Made by a program: the position numbers and the translations under genes | Assembly: GCA_018262795.1 (NCBI GenBank) | Contig: JADFDM010000005.1 | Coordinates: 62,001-126,000 of the forward strand | From: Sphingobacteriales bacterium | Lineage (GTDB): Bacteria; Bacteroidota; Bacteroidia; Chitinophagales; LD1 | Direction: 5' to 3' | DNA: 64,000 bases | Notes under the pieces: generated by a model | Databases searched by the model: none | What the model was told of the DNA's origin: nothing | The model's input: only the letters and a program-made list of their open reading frames with translations | Shown: piece after piece, positions 4,539 to 63,586 of the stretch | How the letters are laid out: each line of letters starts with the position of its first letter | How positions within the stretch are numbered: position 1 is the stretch's first letter

Positions 4539-7500
4539 TTATTTGACCACCAACTTCTCTTTAAAGTTAGTTTGGTAGGTACTAATGTTTACTATATAGA
4601 TGCCTGCCGCCAGTATATCTTTTATGTTGAGAGTTATCACCTTACCCGAATTTGTAGAGTCGGCAGAAATCACTTGCCGGTAAACGGAAGCGCCAACTTG
4701 ATTGTAAATATTGATAGTCATATCTTCGGAGGCATTGCTCAGGGCAATATTCAATTTATCGGCAGTTGGGTTTGGATACAGACTGATGGAAGTGTTCGTG
4801 TCCGCAGTTCTTTTCACCATCACTATGTTGGAGTAAGCGAACTGACCGTCATAGTCGGTTTGCTTGAGACGGTAGTACGAAACACCGGATAGAGGATGCT
4901 CATCATTGAAAGTGTAATGGCGCTCTACGGTGCTGTTGCCGGCTCCTTCTACCCTTCCTACTTCTTTAAAATCAGTTCCATCATCACTTCTTTCTACCGT
5001 AAAGTAGTCGTTGTTTATCTCTAAAGAAGTAGCCCAGGTAGTAGCTACCACATTATCTTTTGACTGTGCATCAAAGCGCAGTAATTTGACGGGTAAAGCC
5101 GCCCCACCGCCATGCGAGCCGAAAGAGAAGGGACTGAAGGTGGATACGGTTCCGTCCAATTCAATACTTCCATTTCCGTTTCCGCTACAAACGGAACCGC
5201 CTACGGTAGTGGCTGCTTCATTCTGCCACTGACCACCGGTGTAGTGGGCAATGGTGAGGTAGTCGCAGTTTTGAATACCGGAGGCCAAGGCATCTTCCCA
5301 ATAAAGGCTGATTTTTACTGGATCAGCAGTAACGGTGCGATCAATCATCCAGTATTCGAGATCACTTACCAGATCAAGACCCGGAGTATCTACCGAAGTA
5401 ATATCGCTGTATGGGGTGGCAAAATATTCGGCAGTAATTTCAGTCGTGGCGTTGCTCATGCCCGAAACTCCTGCTCTTCTCCATCTGCCATCCTTCCCTA
5501 CCGGGAAATCGAAAGCAGTGTTGCCGATTTTTTTCATGGGGCCTGCCACATAACTGGCAGCCGAGCCGGAGGAGGAAGAAGCTGAAGCTGTCAGCGTGAG
5601 CATATTAGCAGCAGATGTATTCAATACACCATTGGTAAGCATGAGTGCTCTGCTAACCAAAGCCGGGGTGTTCAACGTTAATCCATCGGCTGAATTATTT
5701 AAGCCAATGTTGTTGAAAGTAGTTGTAGTGGTACCGCTGATAACTTGTGCCGCAGCACCATTAAAATTCACAGACTTTGACCCTTCAATAAAAACACCAT
5801 CATTGATCCAGTCTCCTCCTATGTTTAGGTTATCGGCCAACCCTTGATCAAATGTTCCTGCTGCGATGTTTAGGTTATTGTTGATTGTAAGAGTAGCCGT
5901 GCTGCCATCAATGAAGAGGGTTTTGCCGGTTTTGTTGGCAACTAAGTCGTAAAATGTTTGAGCGGTTGCGGTGCCATTGATGTATTGGTCAATGGAAGTT
6001 GCATTAAAATGGACGAGGGAGATGGAGGGAGCAAACGTTCCTCCGTTATTGGTCCAGTCACCGGATAGCATATTAATGACCGCATTAGCTCCGTCAAAAG
6101 TGCCGGAGGTTAACAGCACTTTGGCATTCACATTCAGGGTATCGGTGTTGCCGCTGAAACTCAGTGTGCCTGCGCTTTTGTCCACTGCAAAGTTGAAGAA
6201 AGACTGAGCGGTAGCCGTGCCGTTGATGTCTTGATCGGTGCTTCCGTTAAAGTCAACCGTTCCTGTTCCGTAAGTAAAGATTCCACCATTGTTGGTCCAG
6301 TTGCCACCGGAGTAAACGGTAGTAACAGTAGCGGGATCAAAGGTTCCGGAGTTTAAGGTCATGTCGCCATCGAGAGTTAAGGTAGCTATACTTCCTGCGG
6401 TGCTGAGTGTTTGTGAAATTTTATCTACCGTCAATCCACCAAAATTTTCATTAGTAGCCGTGCCGTTGATGGCTTGCGCTCCCGCAGCCGAGTTGAAAAC
6501 AACGGTGCTGGTTCTTGGCTGGAATGTTCCGCCATTGTTCGTCCAGTTACCGGCATTCATATAGATAGTGGTGGCCGTTCCTCCGTCAAAGGTTCCGGCA
6601 GTTAAAGTCATATTACCCATGATGTGCAAGGTGTCGGTGCTCTCGCTAAGGCTCACCGTTCCGGCACTTTTGTCTATTACTGTATGATAGAAAGTTTGAC
6701 TCGCAGCAGATCCGTTGATAGCTTGCGCACCAGCGCCATTGAAGGTTATTGTTCCTGTGCCATAGGTAAAATTGCCTCCATTGTTGGTCCAGTTGCCTCC
6801 TACATAAATAGTGGCCGCAGTGCCTTTGTCGAATGTGCCCGAGTTTAGGTTCATATCCTGGCTGATAGTTAAGGCAGAGGTACTGCCGCTTACGCTAAGC
6901 GTGCCACCGCTTTTGCCCACGGTAATTCCATTTAGCGTTTGGCTGGCAGCCGTACCATTAATGGCTTGCGCTCCTGAACCGGTAAAGGAAACGGTTCCTG
7001 AGGAAGGGGTATAAGTGCCTCCGTTGTTGGTCCAGTTGCCTCCCGCCATTACAATGTTGGTGGCGGTTCCTTTATTAAATTCGGAGCCGGAGCTGAGCGT
7101 CATGTTTCCATTCAGCGTAAGGGTAGTCGTGCTGCCTCCTACGGTTAAGGTGTTCCCGCTATTATTCACCGTGATGTTGTTGAAAGTCTGTGCGGCAGCA
7201 ATCCCCTGTATGGCTTGGTCGGCTGTATCGTTGAAGGTTACAGTGCTGCTGCCGGGTGTAAATGTACCTCCGTCATTCTGCCAGTTACCCCCGGTCATGT
7301 TGATCGCAGTGGCGGTACCGGCATCCAGCGTTCCTCCGGTGAGAATCATATCTCCATCCATGCTTAGAGTGGTAGTGCTTCCGCCTACCGTTACGGTTCC
7401 ACTTGATTTGTTTACGTTGATGCTGTTAAAGGTTTGGCTGGCAAAAGTACCGGTGAGGGGTTGATTATCTGATCCGGAAAAGTAAACCGTGCCATCAGAG

Positions 7501-10500
7501 GCAATGAAACTTCCTCCGCTTAGAGTCCATCCTCCGCTTCCGGTTACATTGATGCTTTGCCCTCCGAAATAATCGGGGGTTCCATCGCGAAGAGTTCCTC
7601 CACTCAGCACTATTCCATTCACCGCAATGCTATCCGTTAAGGTAGAGGTGGCCGAACTGGAGTGGGTAAATATTCCGCCAATAGTCAGTTCGCTGTTGGA
7701 TGTAATAGAGGCGGTGTTAGTCACATCCAGATTGTTGGCAATAGAGCTGACTGCGGACAGATCATAAGGAGTAGAGCCATTGAGTTTAAGATTGTAATAG
7801 TTCCCGGGATGGAGTATGGCGCTGTCTGCCGTTTGGTAAATAGTCACCGTTCCTCCACTGCAATTGTAAGTTCCGCTTAGTTCCGGATATATATCTTCTA
7901 CGCTTCTCCGAAGTTTTAATTCAGAAGTACCGGTCATTGTCAAATCCGCATCGCCTGACAATACGTGTGTGCCTTCATCCAAGATGGCGTTGCCTCCCAA
8001 ATTCACTTCATTGTCCACGTAAATATCGGCTGTCAATGATTTTGTGCCGCTGTTAGTAGCTGCCAAATTATAGTACGATATCAGCGGAACTTTGATGTTC
8101 TGCGCACCGGTGCCGTTGTAATAAACAGTATTAGGACTGGTAGAAACATCCAGCGCTCCGGTGGAAAGCAGTGTTCCGGTAATGCTTAGTGAAGAAGTGG
8201 CGTTATTTATCCAAAGAGAAGTAGAAGCATTTGCCCCGGTCATATTTCCATAAAGAGTGATGTTGCCGATGTTATTCACGGTGGTGTTAGAAGCCAGTGT
8301 TACGTTGGTGTTTACACTCGAACTGCCAATAGTTAAAGCAGAGTTAGGATCAATAATTTTATTTCCGGATAGAGGGAAACTGCCACCGGAGGCAGTGGTG
8401 TAAGTGCCCGAACCGCTGATGTGAGCACCGTTGCCGGTGAGAGATAAGGAAGTACCGGAGGCCATACTTAGATCCCCTGCTATTTCAATATCACCACCTA
8501 CGGTCAAAGTGCCACTGGATTGGGTGTAGGCGGTACCCGAGGGGAGGGTAAACCAACCTGCCACATTCACATTTCCGTTAACGGTGGGGGAAGTAGCGGA
8601 AGCCATCAGCAATTCACCCGTAACATTTAAGGTCCCGCTATTGGTGAAGCTGCCGCTTCCATACATATTCATATTTCCACCACAATTAAATGTTTTACCA
8701 CTGTTGATCACGAGTCGCGCAGCGGAATCTATATCGAGAAATTTCACAGAGTCAGTAGCCGTTAACGTAACGGTGTATCCGGCAGCTATTTCTGCATAGC
8801 CAGAACCACCGGGAGTACAATCGCAACTGGCACCCCCCGGAGTGAAACTCCAAGTTCCATTGCCGGTAGTCATATCATTCCAATTTCCTGATTTAATGAC
8901 ATAAACATATTGGTACATCGGGGTAGTATAACGATCATTGGTTCCCAGTATCCAAGCATTATTAAGGTTGGATACAGAGAGTCCGCTGCGGTATCCGGTA
9001 GGTGCGCCCAGGGGGCCGGCAGTGGTGACGTGCGTGCCGCAAGACCCCAACACACTACCGGTATGAGTCAACAATTTCAAATTAGCCACGTTGCCAGCCG
9101 AACCCATGTTGCTGAACTTTACACCAATATTGTAAGCCCCTCCGGTGAGGCCGGATGTACTTATATCCGAATGCATCTCTGCGATTTGTTGTATCACAGA
9201 GCCTTCGTTATCGGTATAGTTTACAATCATAGCAGACTGCATATCGGTATGAGTAGCAGATACATATCCACCCACCGTTGGGTTGGAGGTAGAATTAATG
9301 GTAACCGGCCGGCAGTAAACCATCGTTCCTATCGGAAAAAGACCATAATAATTTCCGGAGGTGCTGGTAATAGCCGTGGAAGCCGGCCAGTATCTTCTCC
9401 AAGTACCGCCATAAGCCTGGCCTAATGAGTAAACCAAAGCTGCTCCCGAGCCGTTGCCCAATGTGAAGGTGTTACTGTTCATGTCCATATTTGCCCCGTT
9501 CATGGTTAGCGTATTAGAAACGGTGACATTATTCATCAGTTTTATAGTAGTGCCATAGGGGGTAATATTCAGCTTGTAAAAAGTTTCTGATCCACCGGAG
9601 TTGCTGATCTGTTGAGTTGAAGATCCGTTGAAGCTGACCGTATAAGTGCCGGGCACAAAGGCTCCGTTGTTGATCCAGTTGCCTTTTACACTCAAGTCGC
9701 CTGCTGTGGTCAGCGTATAGCCGTTGTTGATTTGTAAGTGACCAAAAGTGATAGCGGCTGTAGGAGTCACGGTAGCTGTGCCGTCAAATATTTCTGTACT
9801 GCCGATGGTAAAGGCAAGTGCGCTGCTGGCCGTTAGCCCCTTGGCGAAAGTGATATGGCTGCCGTAGGAGGTCGTGATTACCGGACTGGTGGCACCGCCA
9901 AAAGTTAAGCTGGGTGCTGCGGTTCCGTTGAAGTTAATATCGCCTGCTCCGGTCACAGCAATTGTACCGCTTTTATTTCCCATGGTTATGGAACTGCCAA
10001 AGTTGAGCGTTCCCGTAGCCGTTGTAATCACTTCGGTTGCTACCGAGTTATTACTCATCCAGGTGATGCTGCCGTCTAAAGTGAAATCACCACTGGTAGT
10101 TTGCACTTTGCTAACTCGGGTAGTTCCGTTGTTAATTCCCACAAAAATCAAATTACCGTAAACATGACAACTGCTATTCCCTATATACAACAGCGCGGTT
10201 CTACTGTTTTGGGTAGGTTGGTTGATGGTCACATTGCCTGTTACGGTTAAAGTATTGGAACTTCCGCTTAACGAAAGGGTTCTGTTCTTGGTTGACTTAT
10301 AAATGATCAAATCGCTGATTGTGCAGCTTCTGCTGATAGTGCAACTGCGATCGGTGCCATTGCTACTCGAACCTATTTGCAAAGTTGAAAGTGTAACTCC
10401 AGTACTGCCGTTGATAGCTGAGGAAACCCCATTCATGGTTAAAATGGTGGAGCCTCCGGCAGAAATACTTCCTCCATTGTTGGTTAAGGAGCCATCAATC

Positions 10501-11360
10501 TCCAACTTATCATTCATTGTAAAAAGTGAGGAAGAGCCTAATGTTAGATTCCCTTTCATTATCACCACTCCTGCACCAGTGGGCAAAGTGGTGGAGGCTC
10601 CTGTAGTGATATTTACGTTATTAAAAGTGATGTTCTTGGTGTGTGTAATTGTGCCGATGCCGTAGAAATTTGCAGTGCCGAATGTTTTCCAGTCCACATT
10701 AGTGCCGCTGACGGAATAGTTGCCATAAAAATTTATGCTGCAACCTGCATAAAAAGTGACTTTGTTATACTCATCGGTGAAGTCTCCATTAAAGGTAACT
10801 GTTCCTGCTCCGGAGAATATAATTCTTTTGCCGGAGTCATCAATGGTAACGGAGGGGGTAAAATTTAGTGCTCCAGTACTAATTTTAAATTGATTGGTTC
10901 CGGTGGTGGACCAGTGAGAAAAAGTTCCGGCAATATTGATAGTTCCGGGGCCGGCATCTAAAGTGTAAGTAGTATTCTTATTGCTGGGGTTCATGTCAAA
11001 ATCCCCGTTAATAGTCAGGCTATTTCCGGCAGCTACTATTTTTAAGGTAGTCGAACTGCTGGTTGAGTTTCCCAAGTTGAGATTGTGGCAAATGAAAATA
11101 CTATCCACCGTAACGGTCTTGCCGCTGTTGATGATCACATCATCGGTGTCCACCGGAACACCGACAGGACTCCAGATGGAGGGGTTGCTCCAGTTACCTG
11201 TGACAGTGGCTGTTTTCGTAGCTGCCTGACTAAACAAGCCCACCAGCATAAACAATAAAATAAACGTAGATTTTGTCGCCCCATGGCAACGAAGTGCCAA
11301 GTTTCTCTCAATAGTAATCAGTATCCCATTTCCCATAACTCCGGTTTTAAAAATTTCCAA
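4539..11360 (-). CDS. Giant repetitive cell-surface protein with T9SS type A sorting domain
   Basis: A 2273-residue exported protein. The N-terminus carries a hydrophobic segment (STFILLFMLVGLFSQAA, near residues 31-47) after an unusually long basic lead; the ATG at 11336 is an alternative start. Most of the protein is Gly/Thr/Ser/Asn-rich short strands of the type NGDMTLNSGTF and GGNWTNNGGTF, as expected of a right-handed beta-helix or stacked-strand adhesin. Residues of about 1290-1850 are clear tandem repeats of roughly 82 residues. Near residue 1980 comes a VAGPMKKIGN...FPVGK segment common in Bacteroidota surface proteins, then a beta-sandwich (LEINNDYFTVERSDDG). The final 80 residues form the type A sorting domain (ISLYPNPTADKLNI to EKLVVK). 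Few cysteines and no catalytic motif are visible. A role in adhesion or matrix is inference. Confidence 0.85.
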   Translation of the reverse strand: MEIFKTGVMGNGILITIERNLALRCHGATKSTFILLFMLVGLFSQAATKTATVTGNWSNPSIWSPVGVPVDTDDVIINSGKTVTVDSIFICHNLNLGNSTSSSTTLKIVAAGNSLTINGDFDMNPSNKNTTYTLDAGPGTINIAGTFSHWSTTGTNQFKISTGALNFTPSVTIDDSGKRIIFSGAGTVTFNGDFTDEYNKVTFYAGCSINFYGNYSVSGTNVDWKTFGTANFYGIGTITHTKNITFNNVNITTGASTTLPTGAGVVIMKGNLTLGSSSLFTMNDKLEIDGSLTNNGGSISAGGSTILTMNGVSSAINGSTGVTLSTLQIGSSSNGTDRSCTISRSCTISDLIIYKSTKNRTLSLSGSSNTLTVTGNVTINQPTQNSRTALLYIGNSSCHVYGNLIFVGINNGTTRVSKVQTTSGDFTLDGSITWMSNNSVATEVITTATGTLNFGSSITMGNKSGTIAVTGAGDINFNGTAAPSLTFGGATSPVITTSYGSHITFAKGLTASSALAFTIGSTEIFDGTATVTPTAAITFGHLQINNGYTLTTAGDLSVKGNWINNGAFVPGTYTVSFNGSSTQQISNSGGSETFYKLNITPYGTTIKLMNNVTVSNTLTMNGANMDMNSNTFTLGNGSGAALVYSLGQAYGGTWRRYWPASTAITSTSGNYYGLFPIGTMVYCRPVTINSTSNPTVGGYVSATHTDMQSAMIVNYTDNEGSVIQQIAEMHSDISTSGLTGGAYNIGVKFSNMGSAGNVANLKLLTHTGSVLGSCGTHVTTAGPLGAPTGYRSGLSVSNLNNAWILGTNDRYTTPMYQYVYVIKSGNWNDMTTGNGTWSFTPGGASCDCTPGGSGYAEIAAGYTVTLTATDSVKFLDIDSAARLVINSGKTFNCGGNMNMYGSGSFTNSGTLNVTGELLMASATSPTVNGNVNVAGWFTLPSGTAYTQSSGTLTVGGDIEIAGDLSMASGTSLSLTGNGAHISGSGTYTTASGGSFPLSGNKIIDPNSALTIGSSSVNTNVTLASNTTVNNIGNITLYGNMTGANASTSLWINNATSSLSITGTLLSTGALDVSTSPNTVYYNGTGAQNIKVPLISYYNLAATNSGTKSLTADIYVDNEVNLGGNAILDEGTHVLSGDADLTMTGTSELKLRRSVEDIYPELSGTYNCSGGTVTIYQTADSAILHPGNYYNLKLNGSTPYDLSAVSSIANNLDVTNTASITSNSELTIGGIFTHSSSATSTLTDSIAVNGIVLSGGTLRDGTPDYFGGQSINVTGSGGWTLSGGSFIASDGTVYFSGSDNQPLTGTFASQTFNSINVNKSSGTVTVGGSTTTLSMDGDMILTGGTLDAGTATAINMTGGNWQNDGGTFTPGSSTVTFNDTADQAIQGIAAAQTFNNITVNNSGNTLTVGGSTTTLTLNGNMTLSSGSEFNKGTATNIVMAGGNWTNNGGTYTPSSGTVSFTGSGAQAINGTAASQTLNGITVGKSGGTLSVSGSTSALTISQDMNLNSGTFDKGTAATIYVGGNWTNNGGNFTYGTGTITFNGAGAQAINGSAASQTFYHTVIDKSAGTVSLSESTDTLHIMGNMTLTAGTFDGGTATTIYMNAGNWTNNGGTFQPRTSTVVFNSAAGAQAINGTATNENFGGLTVDKISQTLSTAGSIATLTLDGDMTLNSGTFDPATVTTVYSGGNWTNNGGIFTYGTGTVDFNGSTDQDINGTATAQSFFNFAVDKSAGTLSFSGNTDTLNVNAKVLLTSGTFDGANAVINMLSGDWTNNGGTFAPSISLVHFNATSIDQYINGTATAQTFYDLVANKTGKTLFIDGSTATLTINNNLNIAAGTFDQGLADNLNIGGDWINDGVFIEGSKSVNFNGAAAQVISGTTTTTFNNIGLNNSADGLTLNTPALVSRALMLTNGVLNTSAANMLTLTASASSSSGSAASYVAGPMKKIGNTAFDFPVGKDGRWRRAGVSGMSNATTEITAEYFATPYSDITSVDTPGLDLVSDLEYWMIDRTVTADPVKISLYWEDALASGIQNCDYLTIAHYTGGQWQNEAATTVGGSVCSGNGNGSIELDGTVSTFSPFSFGSHGGGAALPVKLLRFDAQSKDNVVATTWATSLEINNDYFTVERSDDGTDFKEVGRVEGAGNSTVERHYTFNDEHPLSGVSYYRLKQTDYDGQFAYSNIVMVKRTADTNTSISLYPNPTADKLNIALSNASEDMTINIYNQVGASVYRQVISADSTNSGKVITLNIKDILAAGIYIVNISTYQTNFKEKLVVK
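5800..7480 (-). repeat. Tandem repeats of about 245 bp inside the giant surface gene
   Basis: The segment encoding the GGNWTNNGG-type motif recurs near 6045, 6292, 6533, 6781, 7022 and 7270, a regular spacing of 241-248 bases (about 82 residues). Copies are diverged at the DNA level but keep the same order of strands: DGDMTLNSGTF, GGNWTNNGG, TVTFNG, QAINGTAASQTF, then GTLSVSGST. More degenerate copies continue on both sides. Confidence 0.8.
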
Positions 11361-49885: not shown

Positions 49886-50899
49886 ATGGATACTAAAATT
49901 TCGATTTACCACTACAATGCCGATGAATGTTTTTTTTCTGACAGCATATCCTTGAAAAAAAGTGCCGAATACGACCGCCAATCGCATGTAAGCTGGATTA
50001 ATATCTTGGGCATCAGCGACCAAAAGGTATTGCAAGAAACCGGAGAGATATTCAACATTCACTCCTTTGCCGTGGAAGACATTGCCAACGCAATACAACG
50101 GGCAAAGATTGAAGAGTATGACGATATGCTCTATATCGTACTGCGCATGTTTTATATTGGAGCAAAGGGTAAGATACAGGACCAACAGGTCAGCTTTGTG
50201 TTGCGCAACAATGTGCTGCTCACCTTCCGCGAAACCGATACGGGTATTTTCAGTAAAACGATTGGAGAACGACTCAAAGCCGGCTCCGGAAATCTGAGAA
50301 AACGCGGAGAGGATTATCTGTTGTATTCACTGCTGGATGTGATTATTGATAATTATTATTTCGTGTTGGAGCACATCAGCGATCAAATAGAAGAGTTAGA
50401 CCATGCTGTATTGCACCGACCCGATGACCGCCACCTGATGGTGCTGCAAAAACTCAAGGGGCAGATCTTGTATATCCGCAAATACATATTGCCGGTGCGC
50501 GAGTTGATTAATAACCTAAAGCGATTTGAGATAGAATACTTTGATGTGGCCAGCAAGTACTTTCTTCGCGACTTGCAAGATCACATGCAACGCAATGTGG
50601 AGGAAATAGATTTTCAGCGCGACCAACTCAACTCGCTGATGGACCTTTACTATTCGCTTCAAACGCACAAGATGAATACTATTATGAAAACGCTCACAGG
50701 GGTTTCGTTTGTGTTACTTCCACTCACCTTCTTAGCCAGTTTGTACGGTATGAATTTCTCCGTTATTCCCCGTTCAGAAGATCCGATGGGTTTTTATGAA
50801 ATGGTGGCCGTGATGGTGGTGGTGGCCGTGGTGCTGATTATTTTTGCGTTTCGGTGGGGTTGGCTCTCTGTGAAAGATTTTAATCAAGACAAGAAATGA
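49886..50899 (+). CDS. corA: CorA-family magnesium/cobalt transporter
   Basis: A 337-residue inner-membrane channel for Mg2+ (and Co2+/Ni2+). A long cytoplasmic alpha/beta and coiled-coil domain (for example YFVLEHISDQIEELDHAVLH) leads to two C-terminal spans. The selectivity signature YGMNF lies after the first span (GVSFVLLPLTFLASLYGMNF), and the second span is followed by the basic tail GWLSVKDFNQDKK. The stop overlaps the nadD start by four bases, so the two are translationally coupled. Confidence 0.93.
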   Translation: MDTKISIYHYNADECFFSDSISLKKSAEYDRQSHVSWINILGISDQKVLQETGEIFNIHSFAVEDIANAIQRAKIEEYDDMLYIVLRMFYIGAKGKIQDQQVSFVLRNNVLLTFRETDTGIFSKTIGERLKAGSGNLRKRGEDYLLYSLLDVIIDNYYFVLEHISDQIEELDHAVLHRPDDRHLMVLQKLKGQILYIRKYILPVRELINNLKRFEIEYFDVASKYFLRDLQDHMQRNVEEIDFQRDQLNSLMDLYYSLQTHKMNTIMKTLTGVSFVLLPLTFLASLYGMNFSVIPRSEDPMGFYEMVAVMVVVAVVLIIFAFRWGWLSVKDFNQDKK

Positions 50900-51471
50900 A
50901 AATAGGTCTGTTTTTCGGCTCCTTTAATCCGGTGCACAATGGGCATTTGATTATCGCTAATTACTTGTGCGAGACCACCGACTTAGACCAGGTATGGATG
51001 GTAGTTTCTCCCCAAAATCCGCTAAAGGACAAGGATAGTCTGCTCAATCAATACGACCGCCTGCACCTCATTCGCTTGGCCATTGAAGGCAACTCTAACT
51101 TAAAGGCTTCTGACATTGAATTCAAATTGCCCAAGCCCTCTTATACCATTGACACCTTGGTGCATCTGAGCGAAAAGTATCCGCAGCATCAGTTTAGCCT
51201 TCTGATGGGTAGTGATAACCTTTGCTCTATTCATAAATGGAAGAACTACGAATTACTGCTGCGCAACTATTCTATGTATATTTACAGGCGCAGAGGCGAT
51301 GATGAAAATCCTTACCCCGAAAATTCAAATATTCATTTTCTCGATTTTCCTTACTTAGATATATCAGCCACTTTTGTGCGCGCCAATCTTAAAAAAGGGA
51401 TTTCTATGCGCTACTTTCTTCCCGAAGCAGTTTGCACTTATATAGAGGAAGGAAATTTATACCGCAGCTAA
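50896..51471 (+). CDS. nadD: Nicotinate-nucleotide adenylyltransferase
   Basis: A 191-residue enzyme joining nicotinate mononucleotide and ATP in NAD synthesis. The nucleotidyltransferase HxGH motif is in GSFNPVHNGH (residues 8-17). SYTIDTL and the C-terminal ISATFVRANLKKG (the ISSTxIR equivalent) complete the family pattern. Overlaps corA by four bases. The candidate replication origin begins directly after its stop. Confidence 0.95.
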   Translation: MKIGLFFGSFNPVHNGHLIIANYLCETTDLDQVWMVVSPQNPLKDKDSLLNQYDRLHLIRLAIEGNSNLKASDIEFKLPKPSYTIDTLVHLSEKYPQHQFSLLMGSDNLCSIHKWKNYELLLRNYSMYIYRRRGDDENPYPENSNIHFLDFPYLDISATFVRANLKKGISMRYFLPEAVCTYIEEGNLYRS

Positions 51472-51979
51472 TAGATATACACTTGCCCCTTGTGGATTAG
51501 TGTGGATAAGCGGTGTAAATACATCGCGTAAGTTTGTTTTGAAAGACCGGAAATAACACAGGGCTGTTTTGCCTTAAAAAATATGTGAGCAAATAGGTAG
51601 TAATCAACAGCTCCGATGCTTCAGTGTGGAAATCAACTTGTGCGCAGGGCTTGTCCACAACGCTTTCCACAGGAGGTTGATAAACCTAAAGATAGGAGTA
51701 AACACAGGGCTTCGCAATCCACATAGGGTGTGAGTTGCAGTGCATAAAGTGAAACTTATGTGAATTGAAAGACCTCTCCAAAAAGGTTATCCCAATATCC
51801 ACCGCCTTAATAATAATGGCTTTCATTTTTTAAAAATCAATTTACAAGTGATACAAGTACCTGTTGTGGATGAAAAAATTTTACCGGCTCTGAAACATTT
51901 TTTTTAAAGGTTGCTATAAGATAAAACAGGGTAGAACGTTTTTATTGTAACTTACTTCTCATTAAAAGGTCAAACCTGA
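51472..51979. other. Candidate chromosomal replication origin (oriC)
   Basis: A 508-bp gene-free stretch with a cluster of DnaA-box-like 9-mers. One is perfect (TTATCCACA, minus strand, 51501-51509). Three have one mismatch: 51491-51499 (minus), 51651-51659 (plus) and 51865-51873 (minus). Two-mismatch forms occur at 51625-51633, 51663-51671, 51715-51723 and 51794-51802. The right part, about 51810-51970, is strongly AT-rich with A and T runs, as expected of an unwinding element. No such cluster was noticed elsewhere in the window. parS-like sites and mnmG lie about 10 kb away. Confidence 0.6.
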
Positions 51980-52753
51980 ATGAAATTGATCCCCCGCAGA
52001 TATTGGATGCTCTTATTGATTTTCGTTACCGCGTTTGTGCCAGTTCAGCTCACTTTTGAAGAAAAGCAAAAGGAATTTCCGCGCGTGGCCGATGCTTATG
52101 AGAGAAAGGAGGAGCTGTTTCTAATGAAATGCCGCTCAAAGGAAATTCCTGAAACTTTCAGCGATATGTTTATTAGAGTGTTTAAAAGGGAAGAAACGTT
52201 AGAAATATGGGCGAAGAACGTAAGAGGTAAATACGTGAAATTTGGCGAGTATAAAATCTACTCCATGTCGGGGCACTTGGGGCCAAAGCGGCAGCAGGCC
52301 GATGCGCAGGTACCCGAAGGTTTTTACTACATCACCGAGTTTAATCCACAAAGCAGTTATCATCTTTCCTTAGGGATAAACTATCCGAACGAATCGGACA
52401 AAATTCTCAGCAATGCGGATAGAATGGGAGGAGACATATTTATACATGGCGGCAACGTGAGTGCCGGCTGCATAGCCATGAGTAATTACTACATCGAAGA
52501 TATTTATATAGCAGCAGTGAAAGCGCGCAACCAAGGGCAAGAAAAAATTCCGGTCGAGATTTTTCCTTTTGAGATGACTCGCTTTAATATGGTGTATTAC
52601 GCTAACTTTTTTCAGTTGCACCAGTATATGGATTTGTGGAACAACTTAGCACAGGGCTACCGCTATTTTGAAACGAATAAAGATTTGCCGGAGGTAGATG
52701 TGGACCCACTGGGGCAATATATTTTTACACCCACTTCAACTAAAACTAAGTAG
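51980..52753 (+). CDS. L,D-transpeptidase-family (YkuD/YafK-like) protein
   Basis: A 257-residue exported or membrane-anchored enzyme with an N-terminal hydrophobic segment (YWMLLLIFVTAFVPVQL). The YkuD catalytic motif is complete: His156 (FIHGGNVSAG) and Cys164 (SAGCIAM). PEGFYYITEFNP is typical of the YafK/DpaA subgroup, which acts on peptidoglycan cross-links or lipoprotein attachment. First gene after the candidate origin; psd follows 36 bases later on the same strand. Confidence 0.9.
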   Translation: MKLIPRRYWMLLLIFVTAFVPVQLTFEEKQKEFPRVADAYERKEELFLMKCRSKEIPETFSDMFIRVFKREETLEIWAKNVRGKYVKFGEYKIYSMSGHLGPKRQQADAQVPEGFYYITEFNPQSSYHLSLGINYPNESDKILSNADRMGGDIFIHGGNVSAGCIAMSNYYIEDIYIAAVKARNQGQEKIPVEIFPFEMTRFNMVYYANFFQLHQYMDLWNNLAQGYRYFETNKDLPEVDVDPLGQYIFTPTSTKTK

Positions 52754-61485: not shown

Positions 61486-61501
61486 TGTTCCATGTGGAAC
61501 A
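61486..61501. promoter_or_regulatory. parS-like palindrome 1
   Basis: TGTTCCATGTGGAACA has perfect 7-base arms. It differs from the symmetric form TGTTCCACGTGGAACA at one position and resembles ParB-binding parS sites. Confidence 0.6.
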
Positions 61502-61541: not shown

Positions 61542-61557
61542 AGTTCTACGTGGAACA
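61542..61557. promoter_or_regulatory. parS-like palindrome 2
   Basis: AGTTCTACGTGGAACA keeps the central ACGT and matches 14 of 16 bases of TGTTCCACGTGGAACA. It lies 56 bases after site 1 and both precede mnmG. Confidence 0.55.
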
Positions 61558-61699
61558 AAAACGAAAGGACACTGTAGCTTATGCCGTTCAAATATCCGTA
61601 CGTCAATCCAAATTCATCATTAATTTTACCCCGTGATTAAAGAGAATAAGATTATAGCAGTTGGGGTGGGTCTGCTCAAACCAACACAAACCAAGAAGC

Positions 61700-63586
61700 A
61701 TGTTTAAGGAGTACGATGTAATAGTGGTTGGGGCGGGTCATGCCGGCTGTGAAGCTGCTGCTGCAGCTGCTAATATGGGTAGTAGTGTATTGCTCATCAC
61801 TATGAACATGCAAGTAATGGGGCAAATGAGTTGCAACCCGGCTATGGGAGGCATTGCCAAAGGTCAAATAGTTCGTGAAATAGATGCGCTGGGTGGCTAC
61901 TCAGGAATTGTAAGCGATAAGAGCATGTTGCAGTTCAGAATGCTTAATCTCAGCAAAGGTCCGGCTATGTGGAGCCCTCGCACGCAGAACGATAGAATGA
62001 TGTTTACAAGTCTGTGGAGAACCATGCTGGAAGACGCTCAAAATGTGGATTTTTGGCAAGATATGGTTAGTGGACTGTTAGTAAGGGATGAAAAAGTGTG
62101 CGGAGTGAGGACTTCTATGGGGATAACCATTGAGGCAAAAAGCGTGGTTTTGACCAATGGAACCTTCCTCAATGGTCTTATCCATATCGGTGAAAAACAC
62201 TTTAGCGGAGGTCGTGCAGGTGAGAAAGCAGCTCATGGTATTACCGAGCAATTGGTAGAGCTTGGCTTTGAGTCGGGCCGAATGAAAACCGGAACCCCTC
62301 CCCGTATTGACGGCCGCAGCTTAGACTATTCTAAAATGGATGAGCAGAAGGGCGATGAGGAAGTAAGTGGCTTTTCCTTTAAGAAGGGGATGCACCCCTT
62401 TGGCTCTAAATCTTCACCGGCCATTAGCCAACTCAGTTGCCACATTACTTACACCAACCAAAAGGTGCACGATATCCTTCGCACCGGCTTTGATAAAAGC
62501 CCAATGTTTTCGGGTAGAATAAAAGGGCTTGGCCCTCGTTATTGCCCCAGCGTGGAAGATAAAATTGATCGTTTTGCCGATAAAGATAGGCATCAGTTAT
62601 TTGTAGAGCCGGAAGGTTGGAACACGGTAGAAGTGTATGTCAATGGCTTTTCTACCTCCCTGCCGGAGGATGTGCAATACAAGGCACTGAAGGAAGTTCC
62701 GGGTTTTGAAAATATGCGGATGTTCCGCCCCGGCTATGCCATTGAATACGACTATTTTCCGCCTACGCAGTTAGAGCACACCTTAGAAACCAAGTTGGTA
62801 AAGAACCTGTTTTTTGCAGGGCAAATCAACGGCACTACCGGCTACGAGGAAGCAGCTTGCCAGGGCTTAATGGCGGGTATCAATGCCCATAAAGCCGCAC
62901 GGGACGAAGAACCTTTTGTGCTCAAGCGTTCCGATGCCTACATTGGTGTATTGATTGACGATCTCATTACCAAGGGAACTGAGGAGCCTTATCGCATGTT
63001 TACCAGCAGGGCAGAATATCGCATTTTGCTCCGTCAGGATAATGCCGATTTGAGGCTTACAGAACTGGGCCATCAACTCGGTTTGGCCGATGAAGACAGG
63101 CTGAAAAGAGTGAGAGAAAAGAGGGCAGCCATAGATGCCATTCGGAAGTATTTTGGAGAATACGGAGCCGAGCCTTCTGTGTTGAATCCTGTTCTTGCGG
63201 AGGCCGGTACCAGTGGATTGAACCAGCGGATAAAATTAGACAAGGTGCTTTCTCGTCCGCAGGTCGATATGACTATGCTTAGGAAATCATTGAAAGAGGT
63301 GGATGAATTTCTTTCCCGATACGAAAAGGAGTTTGTAGAGAGTGCCGAAATTGAAATGAAATACGAGAGCTACATTCACAAGGAGGTAGAGTTGGTACAG
63401 AAGATGAATCACTTAGAGGATATTCGCCTTCAGGCAGATTATGATTACAGCAAGCTAAAGTCGCTCTCCATGGAGGCGCGGATCAAATTGACTAAAATTA
63501 AACCCACTTCCTTAGGGCAGGCGAGCCGAATCAGCGGGGTTTCTCCGGCTGATGTATCGGTATTGTTGGTGCACATGGGAAGGTAA
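61700..63586 (+). CDS. mnmG: tRNA uridine-5-carboxymethylaminomethyl modification enzyme MnmG
   Basis: A 628-residue FAD enzyme acting with MnmE at the tRNA wobble uridine. The ATG at 61700 is chosen because MFKEYDVIVVGAGHAGCEAA matches the family start; an upstream frame adds 13 residues. The FAD-binding GAGHAGCE, GGIAKGQIVREIDALGG and the second family signature (GYEEAACQGLMAGINAHKA) are present, as is the C-terminal MnmE-binding helical region. mnmG is often close to oriC and parS; two parS-like sites lie just upstream. Confidence 0.96.
   Translation: MFKEYDVIVVGAGHAGCEAAAAAANMGSSVLLITMNMQVMGQMSCNPAMGGIAKGQIVREIDALGGYSGIVSDKSMLQFRMLNLSKGPAMWSPRTQNDRMMFTSLWRTMLEDAQNVDFWQDMVSGLLVRDEKVCGVRTSMGITIEAKSVVLTNGTFLNGLIHIGEKHFSGGRAGEKAAHGITEQLVELGFESGRMKTGTPPRIDGRSLDYSKMDEQKGDEEVSGFSFKKGMHPFGSKSSPAISQLSCHITYTNQKVHDILRTGFDKSPMFSGRIKGLGPRYCPSVEDKIDRFADKDRHQLFVEPEGWNTVEVYVNGFSTSLPEDVQYKALKEVPGFENMRMFRPGYAIEYDYFPPTQLEHTLETKLVKNLFFAGQINGTTGYEEAACQGLMAGINAHKAARDEEPFVLKRSDAYIGVLIDDLITKGTEEPYRMFTSRAEYRILLRQDNADLRLTELGHQLGLADEDRLKRVREKRAAIDAIRKYFGEYGAEPSVLNPVLAEAGTSGLNQRIKLDKVLSRPQVDMTMLRKSLKEVDEFLSRYEKEFVESAEIEMKYESYIHKEVELVQKMNHLEDIRLQADYDYSKLKSLSMEARIKLTKIKPTSLGQASRISGVSPADVSVLLVHMGR

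Follow-up and report, generated by a model that had tools for sequence, protein, structure and literature searches.

The 508-bp gap at 51472–51979 of the 64,000-nucleotide stretch analysed here (the window) is, judging from sequence evidence, very probably the chromosomal replication origin (oriC). The first-pass annotation had proposed a candidate oriC at this place, and the proposal is supported by four kinds of evidence: the gap holds a conserved, mostly single-copy non-coding element, its core combines DnaA boxes with trios, it is linked to parS, and GC skew switches at the element in two relatives. The origin identity is in itself ordinary, and what makes the element interesting is that its core is widespread, occurs mostly once per genome and stays close to parS despite the turnover of its neighbours. 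We consider it likely that the element represents a widespread oriC core in the class Bacteroidia, which is usually present as one box-plus-trio copy per genome, is recognisable across many families, has flanking genes that turn over, lies within tens of kilobases of parS wherever the two share a contig, and is tied neither to dnaA nor to nadD. For the trio, this statement draws on 28 inspected copies, the wider set being model matches.

The gap extends from the end of nadD (50896–51471, + strand) to the start of a YkuD-domain gene (51980–52753, + strand; PF03734, with NF040599 below its cut-off), both of which lie outside the origin. The ORF list of the window contains no ORF of at least 80 aa starting inside 51472–51979, so that the stretch is gene-free as described before. 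The largest ORF of the window (2273 aa) is located at 4539–11360 on the - strand. Within the gap, a perfect DnaA box TTATCCACA is found at 51501–51509 (- strand), and three boxes differ from this strict consensus by one mismatch: TAATCCACA at 51491–51499 (- strand), TTGTCCACA at 51651–51659 (+ strand) and TCATCCACA at 51865–51873 (- strand). These are the one perfect and three single-mismatch boxes of the first-pass annotation, which had also correctly given a spacing of 10 bp for the boxes at 51491 and 51501. The box TTATGCACT at 51739–51747 (- strand) can be added as a fourth when compared with TTATNCACA, from which it differs by one mismatch. Weaker boxes with two mismatches are CTTTCCACA at 51663–51671 (+ strand), which aligns with TATCCACA of the relatives, and TTATCCCAA and ATATCCACC at 51787–51803 (+ strand), which adjoin the trios. 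The right part of the gap was confirmed to be AT-rich, with an AT content of 72% in 51807–51979 versus 56% window-wide.

When 28 copies of the element were aligned, the most conserved 30 columns corresponded to 51787–51816, which start at the two weak boxes. The core consists of these boxes followed by TAATAATAA, a layout that resembles a box plus DnaA-trio unwinding module, and the core alignment together with a scan for the pattern of the basal unwinding system (BUS) assigned four DnaA-trio-like triplets (3'-AAT TAT TAT TAC-5') to 51807–51818 on the - strand. The core reads AATTCACA or AATCCACA, 2–3 bases and then CTAATAA or a near form in 17 of the 28 copies, and TTATCCCAATATCCACC-GCC-TTAATAATAATGG in the window. 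TAATAA or TAGTAA stands beside a box in all 28 copies, the weakest of which were perhaps found partly through that motif. Nearest-neighbour energies showed that the 50 bp of lowest stability in the gap (51807–51856), which belong to the lowest 0.03% of the window, begin exactly at the trios; this segment is the likely unwinding element. The BUS pattern, defined as a box with at most two mismatches, a spacer of up to 16 bp and at least three trios, occurs at 51787 (spacer 11, four trios) and at 51795 (spacer 3, four trios). Since it occurs 287 times on both strands of C15, the contig that holds the window, and only 10 of the 28 copies carry it with a strict box, the pattern alone is weak evidence. 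The strict BUS pattern was rejected as a statistical test because it is too loose.

A similar box-bearing gap follows nadD at 12 loci of the same family among the 30 nadD loci inspected. Eleven of these gaps are 438–607 bp long, and at the remaining locus (L009) the contig ends before the next long ORF. The boxes were in register across nine aligned family gaps, and a later alignment took in all twelve. A sequence-only model built from the twelve gaps (R1) was run on 40 genomes including the present one (G000). It matched 24 of the 25 family genomes with E-values of 1.3e-5 or better, the sole miss being a genome that is 80% complete (G011). Half of the matched family genomes (12/24) had no part in the training of R1, and none of these 12 has the element directly behind nadD. 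In G000 itself, R1 had a single hit with an E-value of 1 or less; second matches exist among the 40 genomes and are weaker, with a best E of 0.00175. Among 80 named nadD loci, three R1 matches were obtained at E up to 10, one of which was strong (L041). A wider model (R2) was then built from the 28 copies, and E-values of 0.001 or better were counted as matches. In the order, 77 of the 119 genomes had an R2 match (exactly one in 73 of the 77) and the other 42 had none; when the 21 training genomes are set aside, 56 of 98 matched. Of 148 genomes sampled from the class, R2 matched 32, including 28 from other orders with one match each, and had no match in 116, while the false matches expected in this sample amount to ~0.15 by E-values that are themselves rough.

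The proximity of parS to oriC is usual but not defining. The parS-like sites and mnmG that had been noticed within about 10 kb of the gap are indeed present. A pair of parS-like sites lies between ybeY and mnmG (gidA; 61661–63586, + strand, TIGR00136), just left of the latter and ~9.8 kb from the element. The site at 61486–61501 has one mismatch to TGTTYCACGTGRAACA and is the sole site in the genome at that stringency, and the second site at 61542–61557 has two mismatches. ParB is encoded on C9, a contig other than that of the element. The count of sites in the own genome proves nothing, because the search with at most one mismatch gave one site in the genome and also one in the reversed control; the weight comes from the position and from the relatives. 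The pattern was, moreover, adapted to the relatives post hoc. A search with TGTTTCACGTGAAACA allowing two mismatches was at chance level in the own genome (on both strands together, 4 sites versus 10 for the reversed control) and was discarded there, and it brought to light the TGTTCCACGTGGAACA form of G018 and G023, after which the pattern was widened to TGTTYCACGTGRAACA.

With the widened pattern, parS was found in 25 of 28 genomes that had R1 E-values below 1e-4 (set 1), on the contig of the element in 17 and always within 28 kb of it. Set 2 comprised 27 genomes picked for few contigs among the 77 matched by R2; 24 had parS, which shared the contig with the element in 21, all within 54.2 kb, and the distance was 8.9 and 11.3 kb in the two single-contig genomes. 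All 28 genomes of the class set had parS, 23 of them on the contig of the element and all within 34 kb. In total, parS and the element were on one contig in 60 of 76 distinct genomes, all within 54 kb, and on different contigs in 16; G026, which belongs to sets 1 and 2, was counted once. No parS match was obtained in six of 82 distinct genomes (G007, G015, G030, G080, G110, G114). For a genome of 3.5 Mb, a uniformly placed site would fall within 54 kb with a chance of ~3%. In seven of nine relatives (G005, G008, G017, G018, G021, G023, G028), parS is located at or just upstream of the mnmG start; in G019 it lies 3.3 kb away, and in G026 within mnmG. The parS-like pair is recurrent near mnmG in those seven relatives, G028 having one site only. 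In G023, thirteen parS-like sites with at most three mismatches are spread over 35 kb to the right of the element (C4:13789–48317), far above the other scanned genomes, and this cluster is perhaps a spread-out centromere.

GC skew switched at the element in two of the 11 contigs examined. It changed from -0.051 on the left to +0.064 on the right in G018, with the minimum 9 kb away, and from -0.061 to +0.036 in G028, with the minimum 2.9 kb away; none of 2000 permutations matched the change in either case. The other nine contigs showed no switch. On the own contig C15 the skew is weak (+0.008 and +0.021 around the element, change point permutation p 0.50), and its nominal minimum is at C15:37671 with the element at 113.5 kb; in this genome the skew check suggested by the first-pass annotation speaks neither for nor against an origin here. 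The left and right values were +0.015 and +0.007 in G005, -0.019 and +0.012 in G017 (p 0.63), +0.007 and +0.019 in G026, -0.019 and +0.003 in G019, and -0.013 and +0.020 in G014 (p 0.10). Only 8 kb is available on the right in G021 (-0.005 and +0.096) and in G008 (+0.012 on the left). In G023 the contig ends 11 kb from the element, and the best change point (p 0.03) falls at another place. The skew of G000, as seen in twenty 20-kb samples and C15, is weak and mixed, the samples ranging from -0.059 to +0.025, whereas that of the sister-genus genome G018 is strong and clean. Frequent rearrangement or a weak strand bias may be the cause.

An origin beside dnaA is common but not defining. As the first-pass annotation had stated, the window contains no dnaA; the gene is on another contig (C11:63962), so that the gap is not beside it. 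A perfect box is present at C11:63464, ~0.5 kb from the C-terminal end of dnaA, whose flanks were scanned for perfect boxes and with R1 only. Besides full-length dnaA, short ORFs of 94–151 aa gave a second, weaker hit to the C-terminal, box-binding domain of DnaA at G018:C2:632272, G020:C2:66362, G021:C7:47860, G023:C26:7664 (below the family cut-off) and G033:C354:2581. DARS and datA are DnaA-binding regulatory or titration loci, and the gap might be such a locus while oriC is situated at another place, for instance next to dnaA. The perfect box close to dnaA and the lack of a skew switch on the own contig speak for this possibility. However, R1 finds a single place in the own genome, in G018 and G028 the skew changes sign at the element, and an origin is the better fit both for the parS linkage (60 of 76 genomes) and for the unstable trio-flanked stretch. 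Thus, a titration or regulatory locus is improbable here, and oriC remains the preferred reading of the gap.

The setting between nadD and an L,D-transpeptidase gene, with which the gap had been introduced, is true in the window but is only a local address, because 12 of the 24 family genomes have the element away from nadD. Across genomes, one side of the element is often occupied by ykuD-psd and the other side varies. The frequent contact with ykuD-psd, and with nadD in 12 family genomes, would suit a small RNA or a cis-acting control region of nadD or ykuD, with the DnaA boxes as regulators. Yet the element is not directly after nadD in the other 12 family genomes, and some genomes have neither neighbour within ~1.5 kb of it (e.g. 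locus L144 of G018). The gap had no match in Rfam, and promoter and terminator patterns in it were at the shuffle level. Such a regulatory role is therefore very hard to reconcile with the data, and we return to the gap as an origin.

The density of boxes was evaluated in a genome sample of 698 kb, made up of C15, a stretch of C16 and twenty samples of 20 kb each. Seven [AGT]TCCACA cores lie in the gap, which ranks first among the 109 gaps that are 200 bp or longer; the other 108 have at most two, a number reached by the next two gaps. Shuffled sequences gave a mean of 0.22 cores, and none of 2000 shuffles reached seven. Boxes with at most one mismatch number five in the gap versus a shuffle mean of 0.80, and 3 of 2000 shuffles reached five. 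In this sample no other intergenic region is equally dense in cores, but in the looser one-mismatch count another 500-bp stretch (C15:92051) ties at five. Single boxes mean little, because perfect boxes number 107 genome-wide versus 88 for the reversed pattern and are hardly enriched. Two perfect boxes 244 bp apart (C16:34587 and C16:34830) were rejected as a candidate, being inside a 292-aa ORF with few other boxes around. A chance cluster of box-like words in AT-rich DNA, to which this slight genome-wide enrichment and the tie at C15:92051 lend some colour, is scarcely credible in view of the shuffles that never reached seven cores and of the conservation across the family, the order and beyond.

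The literature searches made here turned up no title or abstract that deals with how origins are built in this part of the Bacteroidota; databases such as DoriC may hold predicted origins of class members. The string 'Bacteroid-' is absent from the main text of the paper on BUS conservation, and a testable unwinding site is now at hand in a phylum that this main text does not name. A signature that usually yields one candidate origin per genome, independently of dnaA and skew, would make it possible to estimate peak-to-trough growth rates and to map replichores in draft genomes. If the core is indeed widespread, it could serve to locate origins in drafts with uninformative GC skew.

By analogy with the BUS module as treated in parts of PMC6669920 and PMC8287927, DnaA may start at the weak tandem boxes and load onto the strand that carries the trios. 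DnaA would bind the stronger boxes at the left and middle of the gap, and DnaA on the weak boxes at 51787–51803 would extend its oligomer along the - strand trios from 51807, as in Bacillus. The AT-rich and highly unstable DNA on the right side of the trios would then melt and take the helicase. The parS-like sites ~10 kb off, beside mnmG, would serve the segregation of new origins through presumed binding of ParB.

In E. coli and Yersinia, oriC lies between gidA and mioC. The origin region described here likewise includes mnmG, but the gene is ~10 kb away from the element and has parS-like sites upstream of it, whereas E. coli is not known to have a chromosomal parS. The closer comparison is with the BUS of Bacillus subtilis, which consists of DnaA-boxes 6/7 plus DnaA-trios, both boxes and trios being required for DnaA-driven strand separation according to the sections of PMC6669920 and PMC8287927 that deal with it. 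The BUS criteria set out in PMC8287927 are a box, a spacer and at least three 3'-NAN-5' trios. Relative to the B. subtilis module as those sections present it, both proximal boxes are weak here, with two mismatches each, the trios are AAT/TAT/TAT/TAC rather than GAT, and the element is not beside dnaA. The two share tandem boxes, a short spacer (here 11 bp from the first box), at least three central-A triplets read 3' to 5', more boxes at a distance and AT-rich DNA past the trios (PMC6669920, PMC8287927).
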